Shown: positions 4,300 through 22,075 of the stretch, in pieces
Position numbering within the stretch: the stretch's first letter is position 1
Layout: the number at the start of each line of letters is the position of its first letter
IMG/VR virus record: IMGVR_UViG_3300021425_000215
Coordinates: 1 to 22,075 of that record
Origin: a virus
Length of the DNA stretch: 22,075 nucleotides
Reading direction: 5' to 3' (one strand)
Notes under the pieces: generated by a model
The model's input: only the letters and a program-made list of their open reading frames with translations
What the model was told of the DNA's origin: nothing
Database searches by the model: none
Made by a program: the position numbers and the translations under genes

Positions 4300-4845
4300 A
4301 TGGCATGTGTATGTACAAAATGTGATGAAGTTTTAGGCGATCATAATTGGAGTCCTTACAGAAAAAAGCATGATCACCGCTTATGTAATTCCTGTAAGAG
4401 TAAGACCAATGCTCAGTCAAACCCTAAGCACAATCATCTTAGGATGTACGTCAATGGTAAATACATTCCAAAGACACACCCTTTGTACAAACCAGGACGC
4501 TACAAAAGCTTCATGGATTTAGGTATAGAGAAGGTTAACTCTGTTAAGCATGGCTACGTATACATCATTACCAATCCTGCATTCCCTGACTGGGTTAAGA
4601 TAGGCATGGCCTTTGATGCAGAGGATCGCTTAAGTGGTTATCAAACAGGCAGTCCCTTACGTGATTACGAACTAGCTTACTATGTATTTACCAATAACAG
4701 AGTTAAGTCAGAAAAAGAAGCACATATAAAAGCAGAGAAGATCGCTAAGGAATGTAACTATGAATGGTTTAAGATGACAGTAGAACAAGCGAAGGATGTA
4801 CTGAACAGCCTTAACTTGTACCTTGAAACTGAGAAGGCGTGTTAA
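4300..4845 (+). CDS. Zinc-finger plus T5orf172 (GIY-YIG-like) nuclease
   Basis: The protein (181 aa) has two parts. Residues 1-35 carry C5-x2-C8 and C29-x2-C32, a likely zinc finger. Residues 84-175 match the T5orf172/MUG113 branch of the GIY-YIG superfamily: GYVYIITN (the GIY part), WVKIGMA (the YIG part), conserved R110 in EDRLSGYQTGSP, a Glu/His block SEKEAH (E138, H142), and YEWFKMT (residues 154-160). GIY-YIG enzymes cut DNA and include free-standing homing endonucleases, restriction enzymes and phage accessory nucleases. Such two-part layouts of DNA-binding finger plus nuclease fit a free-standing homing enzyme or an effector against host or competitor DNA. It lies about 700 bases downstream of nrdJ. 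An upstream AAAGGAG supports ATG 4300. Confidence 0.85.
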   Translation: MACVCTKCDEVLGDHNWSPYRKKHDHRLCNSCKSKTNAQSNPKHNHLRMYVNGKYIPKTHPLYKPGRYKSFMDLGIEKVNSVKHGYVYIITNPAFPDWVKIGMAFDAEDRLSGYQTGSPLRDYELAYYVFTNNRVKSEKEAHIKAEKIAKECNYEWFKMTVEQAKDVLNSLNLYLETEKAC

Positions 4846-5054: not shown

Positions 5055-5080
5055 AGGGGCCATTCGGCCCCTCTCTCTTT
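5055..5080. terminator. Bidirectional rho-independent terminator between convergent modules
   Basis: A perfect seven-base stem, AGGGGCC at 5055-5061 paired with GGCCCCT at 5066-5072, encloses the four-base loop ATTC. On the plus strand it is followed by CTCTCTTT. On the minus strand it is followed by a run ending in six T (complement of the A run at 5045-5050). It lies exactly between the plus-strand module ending at 5054 and the minus-strand module ending at 5079, so it can stop transcription from both sides. Confidence 0.9.
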
Positions 5081-8000
5081 AGTTACGTCTGAACTTTGAG
5101 TACGCTTTGGCACCCTCTATGTATCGTCGTAAGAGTTCGTGATCCATAAAGACCTTCTCCTCTTGCGTATACTGATCAGATGCTTTTATCTCCTCACGTG
5201 CTTCCTCTAATGTCTTATCACCTAGTCCTACTTGGTGTGACAATGAGATATCCCAATAAGCTTTAGCATCAGAGGCTGTCTTACCTGCAAGCTTCTTATA
5301 CTCACCACGAATGTATGCTTGGTAGTCACCTTGATACTCTTCGCTCTTCTCTGCCCAGTCTGATAGTGTCTCACGTGCTGCATCTCTTGCGTCTGTGATA
5401 CGTTGACGTACCCATCCCTCAAGTCTACCACGTTTTTGTTCTAGCGTTAGCTGTGCATAAGCTTCATCATTCTCAATGAAGTCCTCTGCAGCTACAGCTA
5501 AGCTACCCTGTAGTCCCATCTGAGTTAGATACTCTAGTGCGTTATTCTTTTCACGGTAAGGATTATAGATAACGAATGGATCAAGGTTAAGCTTAACCAT
5601 CTCACGCTGTAGTCGTGTCTTAGGTGGTGACTTAGTGAAACCTGTGTACTGTTTCTGTAGTGGATCAAGTACACGCACAGGCCCAGCGCCAAAGACATCG
5701 TAACGTACAACGTCATAGCCTTTGTCTTTATTGAGTGGGTCTTCTAACTGGAACTGTGTACGAGCTACACCACCCATATACTTGAACAGTCCTTCCATCT
5801 CTGTTGTGCCTAGGTCAATACCTGTAGCATCACGCAGAGTATTAGACATCACGTTCAAGTTAATGTCAGGTAGGTTACGTGCCATACGCTGATACAGTGC
5901 TATGTTAGTACTCGCATCACCATACAGATCATGCATAGCTACAGTAGCATCTAGTGTGTCAGGATAGTAGGATGAACGTGGATCAAACTGTCCATAGAAA
6001 TCCTTCATCACTGCAGCAGGATACATAACAGAACCTACGTAGTCACCTAGTACCTTCATAGCAGGTTGTAGGTTCAAGTCACCATCAGCAATAGACTGTG
6101 CTGTTAGTAGTGCTTCATCTACGATAGTGCCACCAGGACGGAACTCTGTACCGATCAACAGCTTACTTAGGTTCTTACTTAGTATCTCTGGCTGTTGGAA
6201 GTCATTAGGTAATCCCTCACCCATACGTGCAAACTGTGCCATAAAGTAATGCATGGGTGCTGTTGGTCCCATAGCAGCTTGAGCATTGATAACTTCTTCT
6301 GTTACAGTCTCGTCTTCGAACCAAGCTCTATCATTAAGTGCGTTCTCTTTTTGCACCATGTAGAAGCCAGCCATCATAGCTGCACCTGTAGCTTGCTTAG
6401 CCCACTCGTCGTCTGTTAAGTCAAATCCCTTGTAAGCTACGTTAAGTACAGAGTAATCCTTAATGAACTTAGCCTGTGATGCTAGGTAACGAGGGAAGGG
6501 TATAACTGTAGTGACAAAGTTGCGGTGCATAAAGCCGATGCCTTTGTTCACAGCTTTACTAGTATTACTTGCATCCTTACCACCAAAGCGATTCTGGAAT
6601 GTGAAACGTAGGGCTTCATCCAGTGCATCATGGATCATGTCCTCAGATACAACGTCTGAATCACCTAGTTTACCTTGACGCATTACTTGCTCAAGTGATG
6701 TACCCTGCTTACGCAATGAACGGTTAAGACTAGATGCTACCACAGCCTTCTTAAACACGTGGTCAGAGAAGGTGTTGAGTGTGTTGAATAGGTTACCTGC
6801 CTTAGCAAGCTTTGTGTTACGTACAGTCTGGGATTCAGCCTGTGCTGCGTCCATGAATACACGGCTCACAAGTTCAGGCGATTCTTTACCTAGTAGATTT
6901 ACGACACTATCTGCTACATATGCGTCCTTTGTAAGGTATGCAATAGTATCTAGTGTACCAGCAAAGGTATCACCTGCGTCTGACTTACCACGTACAGCCT
7001 TAATAGCACCAGAGAATACCTGATCCATAGCATCAATGCCTGTCATAGCTACACCAAAGATGTTGTTCCGTAGTGTAGTAGCAGGTTGTGATGTCATCAT
7101 GGCACGTCTGAAGTCTTCTACATCACGTGCAGAACGGTATATCTTACCCGCCTTAGACATACCTGCAGTAGCATCAGCTAGTTCTCTTGCCTCTTGTCCA
7201 GACAAAGGTGACAACCCTTCATCCCACAGCTTATCAAGTTTACCTGCGTACTCTTTAGCTTTGTCTTTAGCTTCTTGCCCAGTAAGCTTGCGTCCACTCA
7301 TAGTGATCCACTGCTTCTGTTGTTGTAGCAAACGAGCAGCATCAGATACTTCAGCAGCATACACAGCAGACAGTTGCCTACGTGTAAGTCCGTAACGTTT
7401 AGCTATCTCATCAAACAGAGGAGTAACTTGCTTACCCTCATCCATCTGACGTGCAAGGAACTCAGTGATACGCTGTCCCGGCTCTGCCTTAAACGACTTG
7501 TCACGCTTAGCAATCTCTGTAGCTAAATCAGCAGATGCTGCACTCAAGCGTTGCATCAGTCCCTTGTCAAACCCACCAATCAAACCATCAGGTAGATCAG
7601 CAGACAGAATATCTATCTTAGCTTCACGCCCTTCTTTTACAAGCGCTGGGTCAATAGCTGCCATAAGCTTTGACTTAGAGAACTTAACAATCTTCTCACC
7701 CTCTGGTGTAGCCATCTTTGCTTTGAGTGATTCTATGGCACGGTTAGAAGCCTCTGCCATCTGTAGCTTATTAGCTTCTACACCCTCTTCGATGACATCA
7801 GCCATACGCTCAGCACCCTTCTGCATCCTACGTAAGGGAACATAGGAAGCTACACCACCTGTGACACCACCGATAGTACCAGCCAATGCAACGTTAGCAC
7901 CACTTACTTCGTAGTCTTCACCGATAGTAGCACCGCCACGTTTCTTGATAAGCTCTGTGCCTAACTGTGATGCTGCAGCAGTACTGCCGTCTAAGGCAGA

Positions 8001-8510
8001 AGCTAGTAGTGTCTTCTTCATGACGTTCTTGCCAAGGTTCTTCAAGGCAATCTTGCCACCCTCTTTACCCGCTTGTACTGCAGCAGCACCTGCACCAGCA
8101 GTGAAGGGTATCGCAGCAGCAGAGACATAGGTAGACGGTGCAGTTATGATACTCTCTCCATAGTCCCATACCTTAGCTCCACCACCGTCAAGCCATCCCT
8201 CACCCTTAGCATTATCAAACGCATACATAAGACGTGCATACGCCTGACGTTCCTGCTCTGGTGTTGTTTCATCATTCATGAAGTAGTAGTCCTTAGACAT
8301 CGTAACTTCATTGGTATTCATAATACGGAAGTGCTCAAGGACATCGTATGTGATATCCTCTCCAGTCATGTTAGAGAAGTCAGCATCCTCGTAACCTTTA
8401 CGTCTAGACTTTAAGAACGTAATAGCATCATCAAGGAAATACTTATCATTGCGGAGATCAGACAGTTTCTTCTCTGTCATGTTCTCCTCTGTGTAGTATT
8501 CGTAACCCAT
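5079..8510 (-). CDS. Large internal virion / DNA-ejection protein (1143 aa)
   Basis: This is the largest gene of the window and the last of the minus-strand virion operon. The protein is mostly helical. Two Ala/Gly-rich hydrophobic stretches, at about residues 128-147 (SAAAIPFTAGAGAAAVQ) and 204-224 (ANVALAGTIGGVTGGVASYV), could insert in membranes. The remainder contains long amphipathic helices with no enzymatic motif I can name. Size, composition and terminal position parallel the large core/ejection proteins of podoviruses (T7 gp16-like), but it has no visible transglycosylase motif, and the lysozyme domain of this phage is in a separate gene. An AAGG element eight bases upstream supports ATG 8510. 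The role as an ejection protein is an inference from size, hydrophobic segments and context. Confidence 0.8.
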   Translation of the reverse strand: MGYEYYTEENMTEKKLSDLRNDKYFLDDAITFLKSRRKGYEDADFSNMTGEDITYDVLEHFRIMNTNEVTMSKDYYFMNDETTPEQERQAYARLMYAFDNAKGEGWLDGGGAKVWDYGESIITAPSTYVSAAAIPFTAGAGAAAVQAGKEGGKIALKNLGKNVMKKTLLASALDGSTAAASQLGTELIKKRGGATIGEDYEVSGANVALAGTIGGVTGGVASYVPLRRMQKGAERMADVIEEGVEANKLQMAEASNRAIESLKAKMATPEGEKIVKFSKSKLMAAIDPALVKEGREAKIDILSADLPDGLIGGFDKGLMQRLSAASADLATEIAKRDKSFKAEPGQRITEFLARQMDEGKQVTPLFDEIAKRYGLTRRQLSAVYAAEVSDAARLLQQQKQWITMSGRKLTGQEAKDKAKEYAGKLDKLWDEGLSPLSGQEARELADATAGMSKAGKIYRSARDVEDFRRAMMTSQPATTLRNNIFGVAMTGIDAMDQVFSGAIKAVRGKSDAGDTFAGTLDTIAYLTKDAYVADSVVNLLGKESPELVSRVFMDAAQAESQTVRNTKLAKAGNLFNTLNTFSDHVFKKAVVASSLNRSLRKQGTSLEQVMRQGKLGDSDVVSEDMIHDALDEALRFTFQNRFGGKDASNTSKAVNKGIGFMHRNFVTTVIPFPRYLASQAKFIKDYSVLNVAYKGFDLTDDEWAKQATGAAMMAGFYMVQKENALNDRAWFEDETVTEEVINAQAAMGPTAPMHYFMAQFARMGEGLPNDFQQPEILSKNLSKLLIGTEFRPGGTIVDEALLTAQSIADGDLNLQPAMKVLGDYVGSVMYPAAVMKDFYGQFDPRSSYYPDTLDATVAMHDLYGDASTNIALYQRMARNLPDINLNVMSNTLRDATGIDLGTTEMEGLFKYMGGVARTQFQLEDPLNKDKGYDVVRYDVFGAGPVRVLDPLQKQYTGFTKSPPKTRLQREMVKLNLDPFVIYNPYREKNNALEYLTQMGLQGSLAVAAEDFIENDEAYAQLTLEQKRGRLEGWVRQRITDARDAARETLSDWAEKSEEYQGDYQAYIRGEYKKLAGKTASDAKAYWDISLSHQVGLGDKTLEEAREEIKASDQYTQEEKVFMDHELLRRYIEGAKAYSKFRRN

Positions 8511-8519
8511 TAGCGTACC

Positions 8520-10280
8520 TTACTGTTGTTCGTCTAGTCGTTTCAAAGTTAGGTACATGATACGTGCTACATTACGAGCATCAATATCTGAACCTAGATT
8601 TAAGTTCGCTCCCTGATCTCCAAACCATGCAGCTACAGCACCCAATACATCATCCATAGAGTCTGCACCTGTTAGCTCTTCCTCTTCACGTAGATATGTA
8701 AGTAAGTCTTGTCCACTCTTACTGATGATAAACTCTGTGCTAGACATAGGCTTCTCTGACTTAGGCTCTACGTAACCTTTAAAGTATTGCTGTGGGTTCA
8801 TGTAACCGTAAGCAAAGCGGTAGTCAATAGGACGTGACGGTAGACCTGCATCCCGCTTCTCTTGACGGCTCATGTCCTGATACTCTTCAAAGGTGTAGTT
8901 CTTTGCAGCCTCAATGAAGCTTTGCTTAGTCTCTTCGTTGCGTTCCTGTACACTCTTAGTGGTGTCTTCAGGTTTAGCTTCAGGCTCTGTCTCTACTATG
9001 TTATTAACAAGAGCTTCATTCTGTAGTGTAGGCTCTTCAGCTGCAGGTTCTTGTGTAACTTCCTCTTGTGCAGCAGGTGGCTCAAGTACTAGCTCCATCT
9101 GCTCCTCTTGTGTGGTAACTACGGGTGGCTTAACAGTAGGTGTCTCTGGTTCTACTACTTCTTCTTGCCCGTCACCAAATAAAGTATCTAGTAGTTCTTC
9201 AGTAACAGCACCCTCTTTTATAATCATATCAGCTAGTGCACCTGACTTAACTGCTTCACTAAACTTACGTAACTCTTCAGGTGTGTTGATCTCACTGGAG
9301 ATAGATAGCAATGCAGAGGCACGGTTGTCGTTAGTGTTGAAGCCGTTGTAGTAGCCCTTCTTAAGTAGCTGTAGTTCTAGCTCAGCGAATTGCTTACCAC
9401 CCTTAGCCATAGTCTGCCCAAGTGCCGCACGTTGCTTAGCTCTATCATCTGTAGCATCCTCTACTTTAAGTAGGCTTGCCATTGTACCCAGCGCATCGTC
9501 AGGTACATCAGTGATGTCATCAAACTGACCGTTACTAAAGTTACGTGTTAACTCTGCACGGTACTTAGTCTGTGCTGCCTCGTAATCAGTAGCCACTTTA
9601 TAGTCATGCTTAAGTTCACCTAGTGTACCAGTAGCACGTGATACACCGGGGAATGTTTGATAAGGGGTGCCATCCATCTGTGCAGCCTGATACAGAAGCA
9701 AGTCTTCTACAGGGATACCCATAACTTGCATCTGTTTAATAGCATCCTCTGCTCTTGCACGTGGGTTAGTCATAAGAGTCTCACCGATAGCTTGCGCCCA
9801 AGACTTTAGCTTCTTACCTTCAGACTTATCTTCAGGATTCTGTGCCATATTATTAGCGTAACCTAGGACAGCCCTACGTAGTGCCATCTCTGGTGTCACA
9901 CCTTCAGGTAATTCTAGTACGTCACCCTTCTTAATGTTCAATACACTCAGTAGGTCTTCCTTACGTAGCTGTACGTTCTCAGGTAGAGAAGCTTTGTGTG
10001 CAGCAAACGTAGAGTACAGATCATTGATGTCATACTTCTCAGCAAGAGCTACATACTCTGCATCATTGATACCAAACTCTGTGTTGAATGTATTCATCAA
10101 CTCCATCTGTTGTTGTAGCTGAGCAGTAGACTTAGAAAAAGCAGGGGCTACACTTCTAGCTCTAGTAAGTTGATTGTCTAAATGCTTCTCATAAGTCTCA
10201 CGTCTTTGTTCTGTAGACTCTTCAAAGGCTTCACCAAAGCCCTCAATTAAACCCGCCTGAAACGCTCCAGTTATAGCCAT
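8520..10280 (-). CDS. Internal virion protein candidate (586 aa)
   Basis: The protein has no motif I recognise. Residues 1-360 are helical (N-terminus MAITGAFQAGLIEGFGEAFEES). They are followed by an acidic, Pro/Glu/Thr-rich disordered linker of roughly 70 residues (EEVVEPETPTVKPP and similar). A C-terminal domain of about 150 residues contains YTFEEYQDMSRQEKR and RPIDYRFAYGYMNPQQYF. It precedes the 1143-aa gene with a nine-base gap and is joined to the upstream 181-aa gene by a one-base overlap. An AAGGAG element precedes ATG 10280 with a rather long spacing. Its place among the large internal proteins and its helix-linker-helix architecture suggest a core or ejection component comparable in position to T7 gp15. 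This is inferred, not shown. Confidence 0.78.
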   Translation of the reverse strand: MAITGAFQAGLIEGFGEAFEESTEQRRETYEKHLDNQLTRARSVAPAFSKSTAQLQQQMELMNTFNTEFGINDAEYVALAEKYDINDLYSTFAAHKASLPENVQLRKEDLLSVLNIKKGDVLELPEGVTPEMALRRAVLGYANNMAQNPEDKSEGKKLKSWAQAIGETLMTNPRARAEDAIKQMQVMGIPVEDLLLYQAAQMDGTPYQTFPGVSRATGTLGELKHDYKVATDYEAAQTKYRAELTRNFSNGQFDDITDVPDDALGTMASLLKVEDATDDRAKQRAALGQTMAKGGKQFAELELQLLKKGYYNGFNTNDNRASALLSISSEINTPEELRKFSEAVKSGALADMIIKEGAVTEELLDTLFGDGQEEVVEPETPTVKPPVVTTQEEQMELVLEPPAAQEEVTQEPAAEEPTLQNEALVNNIVETEPEAKPEDTTKSVQERNEETKQSFIEAAKNYTFEEYQDMSRQEKRDAGLPSRPIDYRFAYGYMNPQQYFKGYVEPKSEKPMSSTEFIISKSGQDLLTYLREEEELTGADSMDDVLGAVAAWFGDQGANLNLGSDIDARNVARIMYLTLKRLDEQQ

Positions 10281-10825
10281 TACATTTGCTCCTTAGACAT
10301 TAAGCCACCTGTAGGCATCTCTTCTTGTGGCGCTTCTTCTTGCTCTAGCATAGCTTCTGCTACGTCTTGTTGTAGCTCATCACCTGCATCCATACCTTCA
10401 GCTGAACTTAAGCTACGCTTCATTTGAATCTTAGAAGCTAGTCTACGTGCACGTTTGATACGAGCTATCTCATCCTTGTCATCGTAGTCAGCCATAGTTT
10501 CTTTGTATTCAATCTGTGCAGCCATAGCCAAAGCTTTTACATGGCTAAATAGCAGAGGCCCAATTAGTAGCTTAACATCTACAGAATGAATACCATCCAT
10601 TACACCACTGGTAAGCATAGTACCTACCATAATATCAATAGGTACACCTGTATCTATCATATCAAGTAAGTTATCCATTACCTCATCGTCAGATAGCTTC
10701 TCAATATGGTAGTTCAACGCATCTGCAGGTTCACTAAACTTAGCGGGTTGTTCCCAAGGTACACTACCAGGTTCGTCTGTAAGAGACTGCCCGGGAATTG
10801 GTCTATCAAAAGGAGAGTGTTTCAT
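10280..10825 (-). CDS. Conserved marine-phage virion-associated protein (181 aa)
   Basis: The N-terminus (FDRPIPGQSLTDEPGSVPWEQP) is a signature I recognise from hypothetical proteins that recur in marine phages, including cyanophages and other ocean isolates. It is followed by a helical domain containing DMIDTGVPIDIMVGTMLTSG and HSVDVKLLIGPLL. Residues 110-135 are strongly basic and helical (KDEIARIKRARRLASK). The C-terminal 40 residues are acidic, rich in Glu, Gln and Met, and probably disordered. The function is unknown. Its presence in the virion operon between a holin-like gene and the internal proteins suggests a structural or assembly role. An AGGAT element lies upstream of ATG 10825. 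Confidence 0.82.
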   Translation of the reverse strand: MKHSPFDRPIPGQSLTDEPGSVPWEQPAKFSEPADALNYHIEKLSDDEVMDNLLDMIDTGVPIDIMVGTMLTSGVMDGIHSVDVKLLIGPLLFSHVKALAMAAQIEYKETMADYDDKDEIARIKRARRLASKIQMKRSLSSAEGMDAGDELQQDVAEAMLEQEEAPQEEMPTGGLMSKEQM

Positions 10826-10833
10826 AATATATC

Positions 10834-11280
10834 CTACTTAGCAAACCCAGCACCGAAGTATAAACCTACGATAGCTGATACAATATGTGTGTCTAATGGT
10901 GTGATTACAAAGCCTTGTGCGTACTTCCACTTAACTTGCTCAGGTCCAGCACCAAAGATGAAATCAAAGAAGCCTGTCTGTACTTCAGTGTAGCCTACAA
11001 TAACATTTACTTCTGGGTAGAACACAGCGACTAGCTTTGGTAAAACAATTATAGCAAACACAGCAGACAATGCAATAAGTCTTCGCGTCCAAGCAAAGTG
11101 TTTATCGTTCTTACCTGCATCACGTGCCATAGCTACTTGCTTAGCGTTGAAGTTAGCACGTTCCATGAGCATCTTCTGCTCAGCTTGACGAGCCTTTATA
11201 CTCTGGCCCCATATGCTCATGACTCCACCTAATACGGTAGAGCCTAGCATTGTTACGAGTTCTAATGGTAAGCCTAGCAT
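10834..11280 (-). CDS. Holin-like membrane protein (148 aa)
   Basis: Hydrophobic segments are visible at residues 4-24 (LPLELVTMLGSTVLGGVMSIWG), about 68-90 (LIALSAVFAIIVLPKLVAVFY) and 130-146 (HIVSAIVGLYFGAG). A basic amphipathic helix (about 27-62, KARQAEQKMLMERANFNAKQ) and a WTRR motif lie before the second segment. This order of hydrophobic N-terminus, charged helix, W-R motif, membrane helix and C-terminal hydrophobic segment resembles the three-TM holin family of gene transfer agents (GTA_holin_3TM). The gene directly follows the lysozyme-domain gene and overlaps it by one base at its start, which is the classic lysis pairing. A structural inner-membrane role during ejection is the main alternative. 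Confidence 0.7.
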   Translation of the reverse strand: MLGLPLELVTMLGSTVLGGVMSIWGQSIKARQAEQKMLMERANFNAKQVAMARDAGKNDKHFAWTRRLIALSAVFAIIVLPKLVAVFYPEVNVIVGYTEVQTGFFDFIFGAGPEQVKWKYAQGFVITPLDTHIVSAIVGLYFGAGFAK

Positions 11281-12505: not shown

Positions 12506-14572
12506 TTATAGCCATTTATTAATAACTGCATCCACGATAGTATTGATAATCTTACCTGTACCAGTACCCTTAGCCTTATCAATCTCAGCTTGAATCTCTG
12601 CTTCCTTCATAGAGTTAGCCATAAGCTGTAGACGAATAGCGTTCTCTCTATCCATCTGAGACTCAGCTGTACGCCAAGCATAAGAGATAACGTCACGCTC
12701 TAACTGTAAGGTATTGTTATACGCAGTCATAGTGAAGTTGTTAGCTGCCATAGCTGCATCACGATTTGACTGGTTCTTCGCAGCGTTCTCAATAGTGGTT
12801 GTCTTCTGCGCCCACGCTGCGTTAGCTTGTGCAATAACCAAGCCTTGCTCTGCGTTGAACTGATCACGTGCAGCCTGTGCTGTAGCGTTGAAGGTAGAGA
12901 TAGCGTTAGCCTCACCTGCATTAAAACGTGCAGTCTCGTTGGCTTGTGCATTGTTATGCATAGCTACCTTAGACGCTAGGTTAGCAAAGAACTGATTAGT
13001 CTGGTTCTCTGATGTAGCATTGAACTGACGTGCTGCATTCTCTGCTGCTGCATCTGACAACAAAGTATTAGCAATAGTCTGAGACTTAAACATAGCTGTC
13101 TGTTGCTCGTTGTTTAAGTTAGTCATGTCCATATCCAAGAACGCCTTAGCATTCTGAACTTGTGCTTGTTGTCTATTGTTTAGGTTAGTGATGTCTAGCT
13201 GTGTCATAGCTGCAGCATCAGCAAGTACTTTAGCGTTAGCCGCATTCAAGTTAGCCATATCTACAGAGTTAGCTAGTCGTGCATTCTCTAAGGCTACTTG
13301 CTGCTCAGCAGTGAAGTTCATATTAGCAATATCACTGATCTTAGCTGCGTTAGCTACACGTGCTTGGAACTCTTGGTTGAACTCTAAGCCTAAAAATTCA
13401 GCACGTTTTTCTGCTGCAAACATAGCAGCTTGTTGGCGATTGCTTAAATTTTGTGCTTCAAATCGTGCAAAGGTTGCAGCGTCTGCTTGTGCTACTGGTA
13501 GTGCAGATTCCATTGCTGCCTGTACTACAGCTTGACCCGCCATAGATGAAGCAGATAGACCACGTGCAGCCATCTTAGCTGCCGCTGCTCTCATAGCACC
13601 TGCTGCCCACGCTGGAGGTTCGTTACCTTCGAACTGCTCCATCAAGCTTGTAAGTTGTCCTTGTACTGTAGCATCTGTTGAAGGAGAGCCTGTAGCTGCA
13701 GCAAAGTTAGTCTCTGCTCTAGCACGTGCCATATCTACAGTAGAACCAGCGATCATCTCACCAGCTTGTACTTCACGTGGAGTAGGTGCTTGTACCTGTT
13801 GAGCTTGTGCAATCTGTGCAGCACTCAATCCTAGTTGAGCTAGTTGCTCAGGTGACATAGTAGCTGCTTCAGCTAGGGCTTCATCACTAGGCTTACCTGT
13901 AGCTGCAGTAAGCTTATCCATAGTAGCTTGTACAGCTTCTTGTGCTGTCACTGCTTCTACTGTAGCTGCCGCTGCTGTCTCAGGTGCTGCTACTTCTGGT
14001 GCTGCTCCTGCCTCTGTCTGTACAGCCTGTGGTGCAGTCTCATCTACCTGACCTGTACCTTCAGCAATCTGTCCTGCTGCCTTATCCTCTGCAGTAAACT
14101 CTGTTACTTCAGGCTTCTGCACAAGAGCCATAGGATCATTCATTGCAGTAGCTGTAGTCTCAGCTGCAGTAGGTACTTCTGTTACGTTAAACGCTGCTTG
14201 TGCAGACTGCATTCTTTGGTTAGCTGAGTTCACTGCAGCTTGTGCTTTGTTTACTGCTTCAGCTAGTGTCGCGTCATCAGGCTTAGCTTGTTGTGCAGCA
14301 ATAGCATCTTGTAATTTCTGTTGCGCGGTTGCTACTGCCTGTTGTGCTGCATCTAGTTTAGCTTGTCCACCTTCAGCATAGCCATTACGTACCATACCAC
14401 CAGTCGCCATACCAATGCGCTTCTTAGCAGTCTCAGCCATCTTACCTACACGTGCTGCAGCAGCAGGGTTAGCAGCTAAGTATTTAGCTTGTTCATCACC
14501 TTGCATACCTTGCATCTCAGGTACAATCTTACCCATCTGTTCTGGGGTGAAACCTGCAAATCTTTTAGCCAT
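12506..14572 (-). CDS. Ala/Gln-rich hendecad-repeat virion protein (688 aa)
   Basis: The protein is dominated by Ala, Gln, Asn and Thr. Residues 1-70 include a Gly/Met-rich segment (GMATGGMVRNGYAEGG). Residues 70-130 form an Ala/Gln helix, and 130-215 an Ala/Pro/Thr/Glu linker. From about 369 to 590 there are 22-residue repeats (units at 437, 459 and 481 begin VDMANLN, LDITNLN and MDMTNLN) and then 11-residue units (FNAGEANAIST, FNATAQAARDQ, FNAEQG...). The 11-residue period predicts a right-handed helical bundle. Position and composition fit an internal core or ejection protein; the gp14-like role is inferred. The C-terminus is an amphipathic helix (IINTIVDAVINKWL). The ribosome binding site is weak (GGGA, long spacing). 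Confidence 0.82.
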   Translation of the reverse strand: MAKRFAGFTPEQMGKIVPEMQGMQGDEQAKYLAANPAAAARVGKMAETAKKRIGMATGGMVRNGYAEGGQAKLDAAQQAVATAQQKLQDAIAAQQAKPDDATLAEAVNKAQAAVNSANQRMQSAQAAFNVTEVPTAAETTATAMNDPMALVQKPEVTEFTAEDKAAGQIAEGTGQVDETAPQAVQTEAGAAPEVAAPETAAAATVEAVTAQEAVQATMDKLTAATGKPSDEALAEAATMSPEQLAQLGLSAAQIAQAQQVQAPTPREVQAGEMIAGSTVDMARARAETNFAAATGSPSTDATVQGQLTSLMEQFEGNEPPAWAAGAMRAAAAKMAARGLSASSMAGQAVVQAAMESALPVAQADAATFARFEAQNLSNRQQAAMFAAEKRAEFLGLEFNQEFQARVANAAKISDIANMNFTAEQQVALENARLANSVDMANLNAANAKVLADAAAMTQLDITNLNNRQQAQVQNAKAFLDMDMTNLNNEQQTAMFKSQTIANTLLSDAAAENAARQFNATSENQTNQFFANLASKVAMHNNAQANETARFNAGEANAISTFNATAQAARDQFNAEQGLVIAQANAAWAQKTTTIENAAKNQSNRDAAMAANNFTMTAYNNTLQLERDVISYAWRTAESQMDRENAIRLQLMANSMKEAEIQAEIDKAKGTGTGKIINTIVDAVINKWL
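12827..13468 (-). repeat. Hendecad (11/22-residue) coding repeat array
   Basis: This covers residues about 369-582 of the 688-aa protein. Units of 22 residues begin at 369, 391, 413, 437, 459 and 481 (one 24 long). After a 14-residue break, 11-residue units beginning FN, FF, HN, FN, FN and FN run from 517. The repeat is degenerate at DNA level and best seen in protein. Confidence 0.7.
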
Positions 14573-14574
14573 AA

Positions 14575-14832
14575 TTATTTATTCCCTATTTGCATCCACA
14601 CAGATGCAGCTATAAATGATAGCAATGCTACTGTTGATATTCTTACTACTGTTGACCAAATGCTTTTCTTTGTATCACGATAAGCTTCGAGTAGAGTACG
14701 CATCTCATGTAAGTCTTTATGTGCGTCATCATCTTGCAAGCCTAGCGACTTTAGTGCCTCTCTAGCACCACGTCTAGCTGCACGATCAAGCATAGCCTCT
14801 AGCTCTTCTGGTGTCAAGTTGATGTTGCTCAT
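14575..14832 (-). CDS. DUF6127-like membrane protein (85 aa), possible holin or spanin-like role
   Basis: The N-terminal half is helical with the pattern MLDRAARRGAREALKSLGL, then DDDAHKDLHEMRTLLEAYRDTKKSIW. A single membrane helix follows near the C-terminus (about residues 62-80, VVRISTVALLSFIAASVW). This matches what I recall of DUF6127 phage proteins, in which a GAREAL-LGL motif and an LR-LL--WR-AK motif precede one TM. The start overlaps the upstream zinc-protein stop (ATGA). It could be an accessory lysis or membrane-tethering protein, but its partner genes are two or more genes away, so a role at the virion or membrane remains open. The function is not established. Confidence 0.75.
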   Translation of the reverse strand: MSNINLTPEELEAMLDRAARRGAREALKSLGLQDDDAHKDLHEMRTLLEAYRDTKKSIWSTVVRISTVALLSFIAASVWMQIGNK

Positions 14833-15367: not shown

Positions 15368-15861
15368 TATACGTATCCTGTTGAACCTGCTGTTCTATAA
15401 CAATATCTAATTGAGTATCCTGCAACGTATCCTGATGGGCAACCGTATGCATTTACAAAGTAGAACATCCAAGGTATAGTACTGTGTTGAACACCTGTAG
15501 CACCACTGTAATCTAAAGCATTGCCTGTGCCATTTACTACACCACCATCTGTGTAACCAGAGCTACAAGCACCTGGGGTGTTATAACTACCTGCAAAGTA
15601 AGGTGACCAACAAGGTCCAGTTGCATGTGCAGTAGTGTTGACATACAAACTATTACTGTAGCCGTAGCCTCCTGTATATTTGTAAGGGAAGTAATTATAA
15701 ACAGACTCACGTTCAGCAGCAGTGGCTTCTGGAATAAACATAGTATAACCAGAGTTATTGTAAAGGTATACCCACCTGTTTAACTCTGGTCTACCACTAT
15801 CGCCACCAGGTCCATATCTACCTAGAATAGTAGCTCCATCTGCTATATCACGACTGCTCAT
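15367..15861 (-). CDS. Tyr/Gly/Cys-rich candidate receptor-binding tail protein (164 aa)
   Basis: No named domain is recognised. The composition is striking: many Tyr, Gly, Ser and Asn, with Cys near residues 100-115 and at the end (GPCWSP, GACSSGY, AYGCPSGY, RYCYRT), so two disulfides are possible. It starts DGATILGRYGPGGDSGRPELNRW and ends GYSIRYCYRTAGSTGYV. It is encoded immediately after the S74 tail fibre with a 14-base overlap, in the position where podoviruses keep fibre-tip or adhesin genes. I infer a tail-tip or receptor-binding function and a fast-evolving surface. An AGAGG element lies 13 bases upstream within the fibre gene. The assignment is contextual. Confidence 0.7.
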   Translation of the reverse strand: MSSRDIADGATILGRYGPGGDSGRPELNRWVYLYNNSGYTMFIPEATAAERESVYNYFPYKYTGGYGYSNSLYVNTTAHATGPCWSPYFAGSYNTPGACSSGYTDGGVVNGTGNALDYSGATGVQHSTIPWMFYFVNAYGCPSGYVAGYSIRYCYRTAGSTGYV

Positions 15862-17689
15862 TTAAACGATCAACCTCTGCCTTAAGCTCTTTAACTGCCT
15901 CAATCAAGTAAGCAATAATCGGTGCAGCACTAACTGTCTTATGCTCTTGTTCTTTTACAGCTTCAGGAATAACAGCTTCTACTTCTTGAGCAATAACACC
16001 AATGTCATGTACGCCATCTTCCTTCCAATCAAATGAAACACCACGTAGTCTATCAATTACATCTAGTGCATTTGTGACTGGTGCAATGTTTTCCTTCAAG
16101 CGTTCATCTGATGAGTAGTAGAATGCTGTAGCTGTTACAGAGCTAGATGCTGTAAGCGCACCACAAGCAAAGTCTTGTCCACTTGTACCTGCTTTATATG
16201 CATAACGTCCATCTGACTCAGACTCAGTGTAATAACGACCATCGTGTGTATGGCTATCATCTGCGACAGTGACGGTTAGAGTAGCATTACCTAAGTTAGT
16301 AAATGTAGCTGAACCTGTTGCATCTCCTGCCAGTGTAAGTGTAGGGTCTGCAGTAGCTGTTGTAGCAATACTAACACTGCCCAAGTTAGTCATAGTGCCA
16401 GAGCCTGTGACTGCTCCTGTGAGTGTAATTGTAGGGTCTTTAGCTAAAGTTACAACACCTGATGCTACAGAGAAGTCTGTACTGTTAAATGATGCAATAC
16501 CTTTGTTTGTAGTAGAGGCATCCTCACCAGAGATAACACCAGATGAAACATCAATACCTTCACCTGCACTAAAGTGTGCACGTACTTCTGTTGCGCTGGG
16601 GCCAGTGTAAGTAATAACACCTGTGCTGTTGTTGTAAGACAACGAACCGTCACCACCTGCATCAGTTACAGATACTGCTGTTCTAGCTCTAGCAGTTGTA
16701 TGGTACAGATTTGTAGAACCTTCAGCTAGATCGTCTGTAGTAGATGAGGCTAGACCTTGAGTACTGATAACACCTGTCGAAGAGTTATAAGAGAGGTCAC
16801 CACTTACACTAATAGCAGCTCTTGCTCTTGCATCAGTGTAATAAAGATTAGTACCTTCTGTTAGGTTTGTAGTGCTGTGGTTACTAATACTTGATACTGT
16901 ACCTGTAACATCTCCTGTGACATCTCCTGTGACATCACCAGTTACGTTGCCTGTGACATTACCTGTTAAGTTACCTGTAACATTACCTGTAACAGCGCCA
17001 CTAAGAGTACCAGTAATAGTACCAGTGACACCTAATGTACCACCAATAGATACGTTACCTGTGTTGACTGTTAAGTTACCTGTAGAAACAGATGTATTAC
17101 CAGTAACAGTCAGGGTACCACCAACAGTGGTATTACCTGTAACGTCAAGAGTACCTAGAGCATCTACATCTGCACCGTTTAACCTTAGTGACTCCACACT
17201 GCCAGAATAAATAGATAACTGGTTAGAACGATTAGTAAGTTTACCGTAGTCAACACCACCGTCTTGTAATTTTACATCACCATCATCAGCATCAAGTACG
17301 ATATCACCCGCTACATCAAATGTTAAGTTGCCTGAAGATACAGCATACTCGTTGTCTTCGATTGTAGTATAGCCGTTAACGCCAGCATTAATAGTGTCAG
17401 CATAAAGAGTACCGTCAAAATAACCATCCTTGTATTGTGCAGCACTAGAACCTAAATCTATGATGTTGTTAGCTTTAGGTAGTACCGTAGATGTACTTAC
17501 AATGATGTCCTGTGCTGGACCTACTTTTGTAATAGGTGCACCTCCACCTACAGTACCATCGTGAGTGTGACCAGTTGAAGCTTGAAAAGCATCTTCGACA
17601 GCGTTGAACTCACTGTCAAGATCGTCAGCGTCAATGACGTTACCGTTAGCAATGTTGTTTGCCGTATCTTGGCGTGTGTAACCTGCCAT
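15848..17689 (-). CDS. Tail fibre with C-terminal Peptidase_S74 intramolecular chaperone
   Basis: The protein (613 aa) has an N-terminal anchor-like region (residues 1-60: TRQDTANNIANGNVIDADDLDSEFNAV, GHTHDG), a beta-rich repetitive shaft, and a C-terminal S74 domain beginning at S527-D-E-R-L-K532. In this family the Ser and Lys form the self-cleavage dyad. The rest of the domain (SFDWKEDG, DIGVIAQEVEAVIPEAV, and the coiled-coil end LIEAVKELKAEVDRL) is complete. After trimerisation the chaperone is usually cut off. The shaft contains TGNV/TGDV tetrapeptide repeats, also visible as a 12-base tandem repeat, and 'NLYYTDARAR' and 'NLYHTTARAR' blocks. AAGGAAG precedes ATG 17689. It directly follows the tail tubular B gene. 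Confidence 0.92.
   Translation of the reverse strand: MAGYTRQDTANNIANGNVIDADDLDSEFNAVEDAFQASTGHTHDGTVGGGAPITKVGPAQDIIVSTSTVLPKANNIIDLGSSAAQYKDGYFDGTLYADTINAGVNGYTTIEDNEYAVSSGNLTFDVAGDIVLDADDGDVKLQDGGVDYGKLTNRSNQLSIYSGSVESLRLNGADVDALGTLDVTGNTTVGGTLTVTGNTSVSTGNLTVNTGNVSIGGTLGVTGTITGTLSGAVTGNVTGNLTGNVTGNVTGDVTGDVTGDVTGTVSSISNHSTTNLTEGTNLYYTDARARAAISVSGDLSYNSSTGVISTQGLASSTTDDLAEGSTNLYHTTARARTAVSVTDAGGDGSLSYNNSTGVITYTGPSATEVRAHFSAGEGIDVSSGVISGEDASTTNKGIASFNSTDFSVASGVVTLAKDPTITLTGAVTGSGTMTNLGSVSIATTATADPTLTLAGDATGSATFTNLGNATLTVTVADDSHTHDGRYYTESESDGRYAYKAGTSGQDFACGALTASSSVTATAFYYSSDERLKENIAPVTNALDVIDRLRGVSFDWKEDGVHDIGVIAQEVEAVIPEAVKEQEHKTVSAAPIIAYLIEAVKELKAEVDRLNEQS
16901..16996 (-). repeat. 12-base tandem repeat encoding TGxV units of the fibre shaft
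   Basis: About eight adjacent 12-base units (consensus on the plus strand near ACCTGTGACATT) encode TGNV, TGNL, TGDV and similar. Three central units are identical or nearly so (TCCTGTGACATC), making slippage or recombination likely. Confidence 0.85.
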
Positions 17690-17700
17690 GTGTTACTTCC

Positions 17701-19239
17701 TTATTGTCTATCGTTCTGCGTATATTCTAGCAGAGCCGTGTCTAGTGTAAATGCTGGGTTTGTTGAGTTGTCTTCAATACGAATAGCTATAACTTTACCT
17801 GAGCCTATGATCTGGTTTTGATACACTTTATCCAACTCGCCACCGTATGTAGATGTACCAAAGATAGCTGCAACAGAACCATAATAGGATACTGCAGTAC
17901 CCGTACTTGTAATAGTTGTGGCTGCTGGTTGAATCAGGTTTTGGTTGTTAAGTCGAGTAAAGTCATACTTAACTGCTAAGTCAATTTCAAAAGAGCCTTG
18001 AGGATCAATGTACGTAGTTAGCTTATAAAATGTCTTACGTACCTGTGGATCAGATACTGGCATGTAAGGTGATTCATATATAGCTTCAATGGCCTCACCG
18101 TCAAAGTTAGCACCTTGCTCCATTTGATATAAATAACCATCTTCATTAGCAAAGACAATAATTTCAGAGTAGTTATCTACATATTTAGAATCAGCTACAA
18201 ATGCTTTAATACCTGATGTCTCACCCCAAGCTAGGTTAGCTGCACCTTGGTCAGAAAACTTAGTAACTAACAAACCCCGTGCAACTTTAGCCTGTTCTGA
18301 CTCTGTGTAAGCAAAGATACGATACTGTGCTTTTTCACGAATGACAATAGAGCAGAAATTAGATGTGCTTTGTGCAAACTTGTATACGTCATCAGCAATA
18401 GGATCAGATGCAACTTCAAGAGCAAAGTCACCAATACGGTCTGTTGCACCTAGTAGTCGGATACCATCAGGTGACATGTACATAATATCACCACCAACTT
18501 CCTGAATAGTATCAGGGTCAAGACAACCAATACTCTCTGTAATAGGGCTTAGTTGGAAGTCTGAGATAGTCGAACCAGTAATTCGTTGAATCTTGTTACG
18601 ACTAAAGATAATAAGCTGATCACGAAACGAGATAAGTCCAGTAATCACATGGCTTACATTGATAACGCCACCACCATTAGCTGCTGTAAAATCATCAGGA
18701 TCACCAGGGGCTGAGAAATACAGGTTAGAACCTTTAGAGAAGAACACAGTATTCTTAAATACTGCTACCTGTTCTGCACCCTGTAAGTCTGTAGAAGATG
18801 TTACAAAGCTAAGTGTACCTGCTGTATCATCATAAAGGGCTGGGTAATTAACACTATCTACAAAATAAATAAACTCACCAGCACCAAAATTAAAATCTGT
18901 AGAACGAATCTTATTACCAAGTAAAGATGTTGTACCTAGTGAAGACCAACCTGCACCTGTAGTTTTGTGATACTCAGTTACACTACCATTACTTCTAGCT
19001 GCAATAAACTCTGAAGGTTTAACAACTTTAACACCTAGTACTCTACCTGATCCTGGAATTACATCAGTCTCAGCTTTATCATAACCAAGTATTTTAGAGT
19101 AGCCACCTGAACGTGCAGGTTCAAAGTTCTGTAAAATAGTAGCAGAACCAATAGCATTAATCCCCTGTTGTAGAGGACTCATGTTTGAGATAAGGCCACC
19201 CTTAAACTCAATAGGAAATGTCTGCCAATTAGTAGCCAT
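17701..19239 (-). CDS. Tail tubular protein B / nozzle-like protein
   Basis: The protein (512 aa) begins NWQTFPIEFKGGLISNMSPLQQG and continues with repeated beta-strand blades (YFVDSVNYPALYDD, AVFKNTVFFSKGSNLYFSAPGDPDDF, GLISFRDQLIIFSRNKIQRITG, DIMYMSPDGIRLLGA). This is the pattern of podoviral tail-tube/nozzle beta-propeller proteins, where blades carry 'F-S-P-DP-DF' motifs. It follows the tail tubular A analogue with a one-base overlap, the same A-then-B order as T7 genes 11 and 12. Its role is to form the distal tube of the short tail, closing the channel before DNA release. Length is below T7 gp12 (about 790 aa) and closer to the shorter marine versions. Confidence 0.88.
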   Translation of the reverse strand: MATNWQTFPIEFKGGLISNMSPLQQGINAIGSATILQNFEPARSGGYSKILGYDKAETDVIPGSGRVLGVKVVKPSEFIAARSNGSVTEYHKTTGAGWSSLGTTSLLGNKIRSTDFNFGAGEFIYFVDSVNYPALYDDTAGTLSFVTSSTDLQGAEQVAVFKNTVFFSKGSNLYFSAPGDPDDFTAANGGGVINVSHVITGLISFRDQLIIFSRNKIQRITGSTISDFQLSPITESIGCLDPDTIQEVGGDIMYMSPDGIRLLGATDRIGDFALEVASDPIADDVYKFAQSTSNFCSIVIREKAQYRIFAYTESEQAKVARGLLVTKFSDQGAANLAWGETSGIKAFVADSKYVDNYSEIIVFANEDGYLYQMEQGANFDGEAIEAIYESPYMPVSDPQVRKTFYKLTTYIDPQGSFEIDLAVKYDFTRLNNQNLIQPAATTITSTGTAVSYYGSVAAIFGTSTYGGELDKVYQNQIIGSGKVIAIRIEDNSTNPAFTLDTALLEYTQNDRQ

Positions 19240-19928
19240 TAGTATGCAACTCTACGATCCCGAATATATTCAGTACGATTAATGTTTTGAGATCGCATGT
19301 ACTTAATGCCATCAGTAAATTTGTTTTGTGATACTGTAGCTGCTTGCATGTCGCCTCTGAATACGTAGGCATAATACATAGCACCATCTACAATAATGTG
19401 TCTAAATTGTTCTGGTATTGCAGGTACGTCTGCAGCTTTTTCCATGTCAACACCAACAGTGTAGTACTCATATACTACTTCATACGCTTGGTCTGGTGCA
19501 GGGATAAAAAGTAGCTCACGGCTAGGTGCACGTATTACAGAGTGTGGTACAGTTCTGTTGGATGTATTAGAGTTATACTCATAATCGGCGTATTTGTCAA
19601 GGTATTCTTCATAATTCAACACTTTTAACTTATTAGTACCCACACTTAAAGTATCATCTCGTCTAATGCGGAAGCTATTCATGTTAATAGTTTTAGAGTC
19701 ATACGGCATACTGTAACGAACTTCACCAGGTGTCAGTACTTCTGTTTCCTCTACGTGATTCCAAGGCCACTCAAACTCTTCTTGGTGTATGTGCCTAATA
19801 GATGCATTAACAGCATCCTTAGTAAGGTTGTAGTAACCCTGTGCACCAGCAAAGTTAGACGTGGTAAGCTCTACTTCGTTAAGGCGGCGGTTAACGTCAT
19901 TTACTAGACCGATAAAATCGTAAGCCAT
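19239..19928 (-). CDS. Tail tubular protein A / head-to-tail adaptor
   Basis: The protein (229 aa) is similar in length to T7 gp11 (196 aa). Recognisable features are the N-terminal helices (DFIGLVNDVNRRLNEVEL, YNLTKDAVNASIRHIHQEEFEWPWN), the beta section (RYSMPYDSKTINMNSFRI) and the C-terminal helices (AIPEQFRHIIVDGAMYYAYVFRGD). The adaptor binds under the portal as a dodecamer and joins it to the nozzle. AAGGAGA with good spacing precedes ATG 19928. It lies between the fibre-tail adaptor-like gene and tail tubular B. Confidence 0.9.
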   Translation of the reverse strand: MAYDFIGLVNDVNRRLNEVELTTSNFAGAQGYYNLTKDAVNASIRHIHQEEFEWPWNHVEETEVLTPGEVRYSMPYDSKTINMNSFRIRRDDTLSVGTNKLKVLNYEEYLDKYADYEYNSNTSNRTVPHSVIRAPSRELLFIPAPDQAYEVVYEYYTVGVDMEKAADVPAIPEQFRHIIVDGAMYYAYVFRGDMQAATVSQNKFTDGIKYMRSQNINRTEYIRDRRVAY

Positions 19929-21420: not shown

Positions 21421-21861
21421 TTAAGCGTTTTCTAAGGCAGTGATCCGTGCCTCTAGTTCTTTGATTGTAGCGACCAAGAGTGGCACTAGCTTGCTTTGGT
21501 CAATGCCTTGGTAGACAGGGTTGCCATCTGCATCTACTTCATCTTTTGTGCCGTGAATTGCCTCTGGTACAACTGTTTGAACTTCGTGCGCTAGAAAGCC
21601 ATCCACAGTAGTGTCGGCGTCTGCAATAAAGTTAAAGCGATATACTGGAATTTGTTTTATACGATCTGTTGCACCTGTTAAGACAACTACGTTCTCTTTA
21701 AGTCGATAGTCAGATGTTGTGTTGTAAGATACAGATGACCCGTTTGTAGTAACCTTTGCAACCTCAGTAGAAGAAGAATACCAACGAATTAAGTCTCCGC
21801 TGCCATTTCTTTTAAAACTTGCCGCTGTTCCACCACCTGATCTTTGCTGCTCAGCCCACAA
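21421..21861 (-). CDS. Tail-fibre C-terminus with Peptidase_S74 chaperone (frameshifted from its upstream part)
   Basis: The product carries a full S74 chaperone: S-D-Y-R-L-K-E-N with the Ser/Lys dyad, VYRFNFIADADTTVDGFLAHEVQTVVPEAI, and the C-terminal coiled coil LVPLLVATIKELEARITALENA. Just upstream is the distal shaft (SFKRNGSGDLIRWYSSSTEVAKVTTNGSS). The apparent start at 21861 is TTG without a ribosome binding site. The frame is open to 21909, where a stop bounds it, and upstream fibre coding continues in another frame at 21875-22075. I therefore read it as the 3' part of a longer tail-fibre gene. The S74 domain chaperones trimerisation and then cleaves itself off. Confidence 0.85.
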   Translation of the reverse strand: MWAEQQRSGGGTAASFKRNGSGDLIRWYSSSTEVAKVTTNGSSVSYNTTSDYRLKENVVVLTGATDRIKQIPVYRFNFIADADTTVDGFLAHEVQTVVPEAIHGTKDEVDADGNPVYQGIDQSKLVPLLVATIKELEARITALENA

Positions 21862-21874
21862 ACAGTCAAATTCA

Positions 21875-22075
21875 CTAGTTACAAAATAAACAGCACCATT
21901 GCGAAGTGGTTAAATTTAAAGATGCACCAGTGCCGCCAGACCCGAAAGTACCTCCAGTAGAACCCAAAGTAATGTTTCGGTTGCTATCAATATGCACCCT
22001 AGGATTACCATCCCCATCCGACAGCACGATGTTGTTGCTTGAGGTGCGGATGTCCAAGCCGCCTTGGTTGCCGTT
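21875..22075 (-). CDS. Tail-fibre shaft, partial (upstream part of the S74 fibre)
   Basis: The frame is open through the right edge of the window, so the gene starts outside it. Residues resemble the fibre repeats that precede S74 domains: IRTSSNNIVLSDGDGNPRVHIDSNRNITLGSTGG. The frame ends in TAG at 21875-21877, just after ASLNLTTSQ, while the adjacent frame continues as NGAVYFVTSEF towards the S74 domain. Dropping a single base in 21878-21909 would fuse both parts into one fibre protein. The break may be a real mutation, programmed frameshifting or an assembly or sequencing error. Confidence 0.75.
   Translation of the reverse strand, partial: NGNQGGLDIRTSSNNIVLSDGDGNPRVHIDSNRNITLGSTGGTFGSGGTGASLNLTTSQWCCLFCN

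Follow-up and report, generated by a model that had tools for sequence, protein, structure and literature searches.

A phase-locked hendecad array, quantised in elevens, in a candidate ejection protein of HMO-2011-type podophages

What does a podophage build with a long protein whose middle repeats every eleven residues, and where in the infection does that structure act? The window in which the question arises is a 22,075-base viral contig, analysed whole, whose minus strand encodes a series that begins with tail adaptor and fibres, includes a 688-aa repeat protein and ends with a 1143-aa protein, while its plus strand carries endonuclease I, MazG, ribonucleotide reductase and glutaredoxin. 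The genes needed for the argument are as follows.

19239-19928, minus strand: 229-aa tail adaptor, SU10-adaptor-like (PF24175, E 1.8e-17; phrog_10775, E 3.7e-35)
14575-14832, minus strand: 85-aa DUF6127 protein with one membrane-like segment, upstream neighbour of the array gene (PF19622, E 1.3e-23)
12506-14572, minus strand: 688-aa array protein (P0001), HMO-2011 gp25 family (tblastn to 26 phage records)
11280-12515, minus strand: 411-aa protein with an endolysin-like region, next gene after the array gene (phrog_90, E 1.9e-21)
10834-11280, minus strand: 148-aa membrane-like protein (hydropathy maximum 2.59; phrog_38283, unknown function)
10280-10825, minus strand: 181-aa constant partner of the array protein (downstream, same strand, in 277/277 loci where found)
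8520-10280, minus strand: 586-aa cassette protein (downstream in 68/68 loci where found)
5079-8510, minus strand: 1143-aa cassette protein (downstream in 161/161 loci where found)

Two further proteins, encoded at 15848-17689 and 21421-21861 on the minus strand, carry Peptidase_S74. At the right end of the window the frame shifts between the ORFs 21875-22075 and 21421-21861, so that the gene there appears split or cut by the contig end. A T5orf172/MUG113 domain protein (4300-4845, plus strand) adjoins the late operon, and the 613-aa fibre gene holds 12- and 36-base tandem repeats at 16900-17155, with lags of 4, 8 and 12 in its protein.

The initial annotation had described a hendecad array at 12827-13468 (aa 369-582), with 22-residue units followed by 11-residue units. 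That array is confirmed, its regular register extending somewhat beyond (aa 364-605), and the two kinds of unit do follow one another, all in one 11-register and with no slip. The parts of the protein referred to below are these.

14180-14368, minus strand: separate N-terminal helical segment, aa 69-131, in the variable-length part (AlphaFold2 helices 69-96 and 101-131; block pLDDT 79-95, aa 71 to 130)
13484-13615, minus strand: conserved N-terminal anchor, aa 320-363
12758-13483, minus strand: hendecad array, aa 364-605, 22 units in one register (rows of 11; length quantised in 11s; no proline)
13088-13483, minus strand: 22-residue units, about aa 364-495, with a family consensus of about NAQAFAQMDLA-NLSNEQQAALA
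12758-13087, minus strand: 11-residue units, partly FNA-type, aa 496-605, helical in AlphaFold2
12638-12805, minus strand: conserved C-terminal anchor, aa 590-645

An 11-residue period stands above chance in aa 364-605, as the initial annotation expected: residue similarity peaks at lags 22 (z 7.0), 44 (6.8), 33 (3.6) and 11 (3.5), and the top value was reached by 0 of 2000 shuffles. Periodicity is not significant in aa 1-263 (top lag also 11, z 2.9; 181/2000 shuffles), aa 264-364 (1674/2000) or aa 606-688 (top lag 24; 100/2000). The main hydropathy periods are 2.75 and 2.2 residues, both harmonics of 11, and not 3.67. Tandem Repeats Finder returned no DNA array across the region encoding aa 364-605, only one 21-base row inside it, and because no DNA tandem array spans the protein array the repeats are old. 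The 688-aa protein matches nothing in Pfam or PHROG at E<=0.01 or in NCBIfam at E<=0.1, and it is presumably a virion protein.

Such periodicity is rare among the proteins with which it was compared. In the best 150-residue window of each of 22 proteins, the array protein has by far the strongest family of lags 11, 22, 33 and 44 (mean z 4.9), followed by phiX174 H (mean z 2.5). Besides these two, no protein of the 22 combines a leading lag 11 with elevated lags 22, 33 and 44; in the T7 gp17 fibre (4.2) and BPP-1 bbp12 (3.5), lag 11 is high by itself, without multiples. The earlier remark that these repeats are uncommon in podoviral ejection proteins holds up well: the family is absent from all 11 internal or ejection proteins, annotated or presumed, of T7, P-SSP7, P22 and BPP-1 (mean z 1.7 or below) and from SU10 gp20-gp23, the set compared, and is present in only one of 11 further proteins, gp17 of Pseudoalteromonas phage H6/1. 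Phage 7-11 gp20, DB2 gp18 and AH02 gp11 have no 11-residue periodicity.

The relatives of the array protein belong to HMO-2011-type podophages, short-tailed and for the most part aquatic phages that the available text of PMC9038755 describes as a dominant and broadly distributed marine group. The 26 phage records reached by tblastn comprise Roseobacter (10), Pelagibacter (4), Rhizobium (3), HMO-2011 (2), Vibrio CHOED (2), Aeromonas (2) and other (3) phages. By this search HMO-2011 gp25 and its homologues in CRP, HTVC, phiM6, RHph, CHOED, MQM1 and Slicky01 phages form one family with the window protein, sharing its anchors, its array and the 181-aa partner; they differ from it in array length, by whole hendecads, and in the C-terminal module, which varies between a plain, an S74 and a CWVAREVYG-type end. 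HMO-2011 gp25 is annotated as a hypothetical protein and the homologue in MW202701 as huntingtin, and the one in Aeromonas phage 1233 is unannotated. Among bacterial genomes, 20 pattern matches included no relative of the array protein. The literature searched yielded no virion proteomics for HMO-2011-type phages; the terms structural protein and mass spectrometry were among those not found in the text available for PMC9038755, and none of the papers found on hendecads and phages concerned HMO-2011-type phages, judged by title.

The most striking property of the family emerges when array length is compared across it. Anchor profiles were built from the conserved stretches aa 320-363 and 590-645, and the distance between them was measured in each relative; 334 loci besides the window's were considered, of which 19 lacked both anchors in one ORF and were excluded and others were dropped as duplicates, leaving 248. 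In all 248 unique relatives, the window included, the anchor-to-anchor length equals 6 modulo 11, in 17 distinct sizes (149, 160, 171, 182, 204, 215, 226, 248, 314, 336, 424, 446, 534, 556, 644, 666 and 776 aa). The flanking parts behave otherwise: among the complete ORFs in this set, 154 different lengths occur ahead of the N anchor and 45 beyond the array, in both cases distributed over all 11 classes. The 248 relatives cannot be counted as independent cases: 16 length changes are the least that can safely be assumed, and 40 are suggested by a weak tree (100 columns, no support test).

The rule was not equally clean at every stage of the measurement. A first length test with regular expressions put 2 of 35 sequences off phase (L067 and L073), assigned L060 a length of 338 and left 44 of 79 unplaced; with profile anchors instead, 74 of 74 were on phase, and in a further round with other anchors than the final ones so were 66 of 66 new sequences. 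One relative, L071, measured 237 in one round, but its alignment shows no indel and 237 is absent from the final set, so that it was counted as an anchor slip. Phase is thus unbroken along the array in 248 of 248 members, as expected of a hendecad coiled coil. No such length rule was found in the literature searched.

Several observations bear on whether the array is helical. First, proline is absent from all 70,491 array residues of the 248 arrays and occurs 5,414 times in the 96,420 residues before the N anchor of the same proteins; Asn and Gln together make up 29.4% of array residues. Second, AlphaFold2 with 38 sequences predicts helices at 343-393, 400-418, 422-437 and 445-687 and no strand, with block pLDDT of 74-86 at aa 511-610 and 39-67 at aa 301-510 (39-62 at 401-510). 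A run with 68 sequences over aa 290-688 gives helix throughout and again no strand (pLDDT blocks 71-83 at aa 300-409, 42-58 at aa 410-519, 63-91 at aa 520-669). Both runs interrupt the helix near aa 395-399, 420-422 and 440-444, one of them also near 503-509, and neither monomer run yields a confident tertiary fold (pTM 0.27 and 0.29). Given the low confidence and the breaks, one continuous helix is something that we infer from the phase lock, not something that the models predict. Finally, a solenoid or beta-helix was rejected, as odd as well as even multiples of 11 are seen, net indels of any other size are missing, and both AlphaFold2 runs show helix only.

Judged by sequence, the array fits a long alpha helix with 3.67 residues per turn, and sequence and models together suggest that aa 364-605 form an elongated, phase-locked hendecad array that is most likely helical, which bears out this part of the initial annotation. 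The symmetry of any assembly is harder to read. A hydrophobic stripe at 3.67 residues is weak (reached by 81% of shuffles in the window's protein; family mean 55%), and among the controls phiX174 H passes (2.5%) while the trimeric coil of P22 gp26 (29%) and the P22 portal barrel (58%), over what we take to be the boundaries of these two regions, also miss. As a trimeric coil and a barrel likewise lack the stripe, symmetry cannot be read from this test. Two hydrophobic seams were rejected as proof of a barrel, since the control P22 gp26, a trimer, shows that second harmonic too. The array helices may form the right-handed bundle of the initial annotation, a tube or a trimer. By sequence the array protein has no significant relative in the PDB; Foldseek against the PDB gave a best E of 1.1 and none at E<=0.001, and against viral models four matches at E<=0.001, mostly unnamed.

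A clue to function lies in the company that the gene keeps. It opens a cassette in the order array protein, lysozyme-like, membrane-like (148 aa), 181-aa, 586-aa and 1143-aa protein. The 181-aa protein was found in 277 of the 333 loci with an array ORF, and among 50,697 phage records the 27 with the array protein are also the 27 with the 181-aa protein. Where found, the lysozyme-like protein (411 aa) is downstream on the same strand in 44/44 loci, the 148-aa protein downstream in 66 of 70 and upstream in 4, and the DUF6127 protein upstream on the same strand in 89/89. Among ten isolates, sequence identifies the 181-aa protein in all ten, the 1143-aa protein in three and the 586-aa protein in one; for the remaining isolates, size and order alone mark the middle and large cassette proteins. 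The 181-aa protein has no Pfam, PHROG or NCBIfam match at the thresholds used; it makes a good marker gene.

A comparable cassette is known from phage SU10, whose gp20-24 are, according to the available text of PMC9509320, present in the virion and absent after genome release, with mass spectrometry support. The SU10 gene table lists them as a transglycosylase, two DNA ejection proteins, a protein of 551 aa and one of over 1400 aa. Order and sizes are similar to those in the window and the adaptor family is shared; unlike the window's cassette, however, that of SU10 has no 11-residue array in gp20-gp23, and its gp21 has no detectable homology to the array family. From position and sizes we infer that the window's cassette, array protein included, is the counterpart of the SU10 cassette.

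Homology to ejection proteins was tested directly and not found, so we say that the array protein may work like one and do not file it as a member of a known family. Against SU10 gp21, 7-11 gp20 and H6/1 gp17, hhalign gave E 0.44-0.55, and a profile search against 19 candidates returned no homologue, a reversed decoy scoring best. Ejection proteins are poorly conserved. The 11-residue periodicity is shared by H6/1 gp17, the first of three genes annotated as putative ejection protein, with z of 4.3, 4.0 and 4.1 at lags 11, 22 and 33, 22% Asn and Gln and an S74 end; it differs from the array protein in its size of 358 aa, and outside S74 the two show no similarity that could be aligned. A TVxxQ...GSSxxG stretch in 7-11 gp20 looks similar by eye, which is a lead only. 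In viral contigs, two relatives of 7-11 gp20 and none of H6/1 gp17 were found.

A structural precedent is the DNA pilot protein H of phiX174, a tube of ten helices in which lag 11 is likewise the top lag. As described in the available text of PMC7354561, the tube region opens with hendecads, and mainly N, Q and R face its lumen. By that account it has only three hendecads, then a transition, then heptads, unlike the array protein; phiX174 is, moreover, a single-stranded DNA phage, and there is no sequence similarity between the two proteins.

We propose, at roughly even odds (about 0.5), that the array protein is an ejection protein of HMO-2011-type podophages, encoded by the first gene of a conserved cassette. 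Several copies would be packed in the head and would leave it before or with the DNA. Their array helices would then associate laterally into an elongated rod or a channel wall of parallel helices, which may help the DNA through the envelope in the manner of the N/Q/R-lined phiX174 H tube. In such an assembly only whole hendecads could be gained or lost: a change of any other size would rotate the two ends of the helix against each other and disrupt the lateral contacts.

Of the two roles first suggested for the repeats, a trans-envelope tube formed by the array protein is possible, and no observation favours a scaffold in the capsid. A simple tube across the envelope does not agree with the longest relatives: an array of 776 aa would measure about 115 nm if straight, which exceeds the 70.6-nm capsid (tail 9.2 nm) reported for the relative MQM1 in the available text of PMC10410586. 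An envelope ruler is not supported either. Phages of one host strain, FZCC0040, differ in array length (215 aa in CRP-207, 160 aa in CRP-3 and CRP-235 and, with a weakly matching N anchor of E 0.033, 160 aa in CRP-212), which means that the array does not serve as a ruler for that envelope. A membrane-inserting C-terminal tail is a weak candidate, with a median best 19-residue hydropathy of 0.77 over 243 tails.

The alternative that survives best, although we consider it unlikely, is an external trimeric fibre or needle in which three array helices form a coiled-coil shaft, the array sets shaft length and the S74 domain of some relatives acts as the self-cleaving trimer chaperone usual in tail fibres. 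The array gene does come after the fibre genes, array lengths of 22-115 nm suit fibres, and seven relatives, all with 160-aa arrays, end in Peptidase_S74 (L081, L090, L177, L181, L182, L095 and L096, in a scan of relatives chosen for long tails that took in part of the 14 with a 160-aa array). Many fibre families match these S74 tails, and the tblastn matches of one tail include fibres. Yet S74 also ends annotated ejection proteins: the same tblastn search matched ejection proteins of H6/1 and 7-11, and five tails (L177, L181, L182, L095 and L096) score best against phrog_6121 'virion structural protein' and phrog_4287 'DNA ejection protein'. The window's own array protein, moreover, has no C-terminal Peptidase_S74 by Pfam. 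Fibres keep a conserved N-terminal virion-binding end, whereas here conserved domains flank an array in mid-protein, and the gene opens a conserved cassette instead of lying among the variable fibres. The array lengths are thus easier to explain for a fibre and the cassette position for ejection; gene order, the nearest S74 tails and the ejected SU10 cassette lead us to favour an ejection protein over a fibre. A separate C[WY]VAREVYG-type C-terminus occurs in L082, L055, L076, L128, L154 and L157, where it replaces S74 in part of the 226-residue class, and it has no Pfam or PHROG match in the members scanned.

T7-like phages have internal cores, and an Asn- and Gln-rich helix could contact DNA, which would suit a core or scaffold that organises DNA or portal within the capsid and is not ejected. 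We regard such a role as decidedly improbable, since array length ranges from 149 to 776 aa and does not grow with the genome among isolates (63-68 kb genomes have 149-182 aa, 53-55 kb genomes 160-336 aa).

The longest arrays show a second level of repetition, which bears on how lengths change. Long members fall on two ladders with a 110-residue step, from 226 to 776 and from 204 to 644. Lag 110 is strongest in arrays of 534, 556, 644, 666 and 776 residues (identity 0.25, 0.36, 0.30, 0.45 and 0.54); in the 446 class it is level with other lags, and the 314, 336 and 424 classes have lag 22 or 66 on top. The 110-residue block consists of five 22-residue units. These super-repeats and length steps are what unequal exchange of 33-bp or 330-bp units would give, and repeat mutation of this kind, with no strong selection on phase, might by itself produce the multiple-of-11 rule. 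We find that account highly improbable. In the ten longest arrays (556 to 776 residues) most adjacent 330-base blocks have drifted apart, with neighbours at 34-83% DNA identity, which makes no more than some of the duplications look recent; in the window, no tandem array of DNA extends over the repeats. No net indel other than a multiple of 11 occurs in any of the 248 arrays, and eight length classes remain once the 110-aa steps are folded out, so at least seven length changes are of another kind.

How podophage DNA passes the envelope is only partly solved. The array protein may even form, in phages with double-stranded DNA, an equivalent of the phiX174 H tube, a helical conduit of hendecads lined by N and Q whose wall height comes in quanta of 11 residues, in some lineages 110, up to 776; we put this forward as a tentative and somewhat doubtful extension. 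The array protein and its 181-aa partner provide a two-gene signature for HMO-2011-type phages, and the strict length series from 149 to 776 residues offers a natural test of whether helix length sets the length of a channel or fibre.
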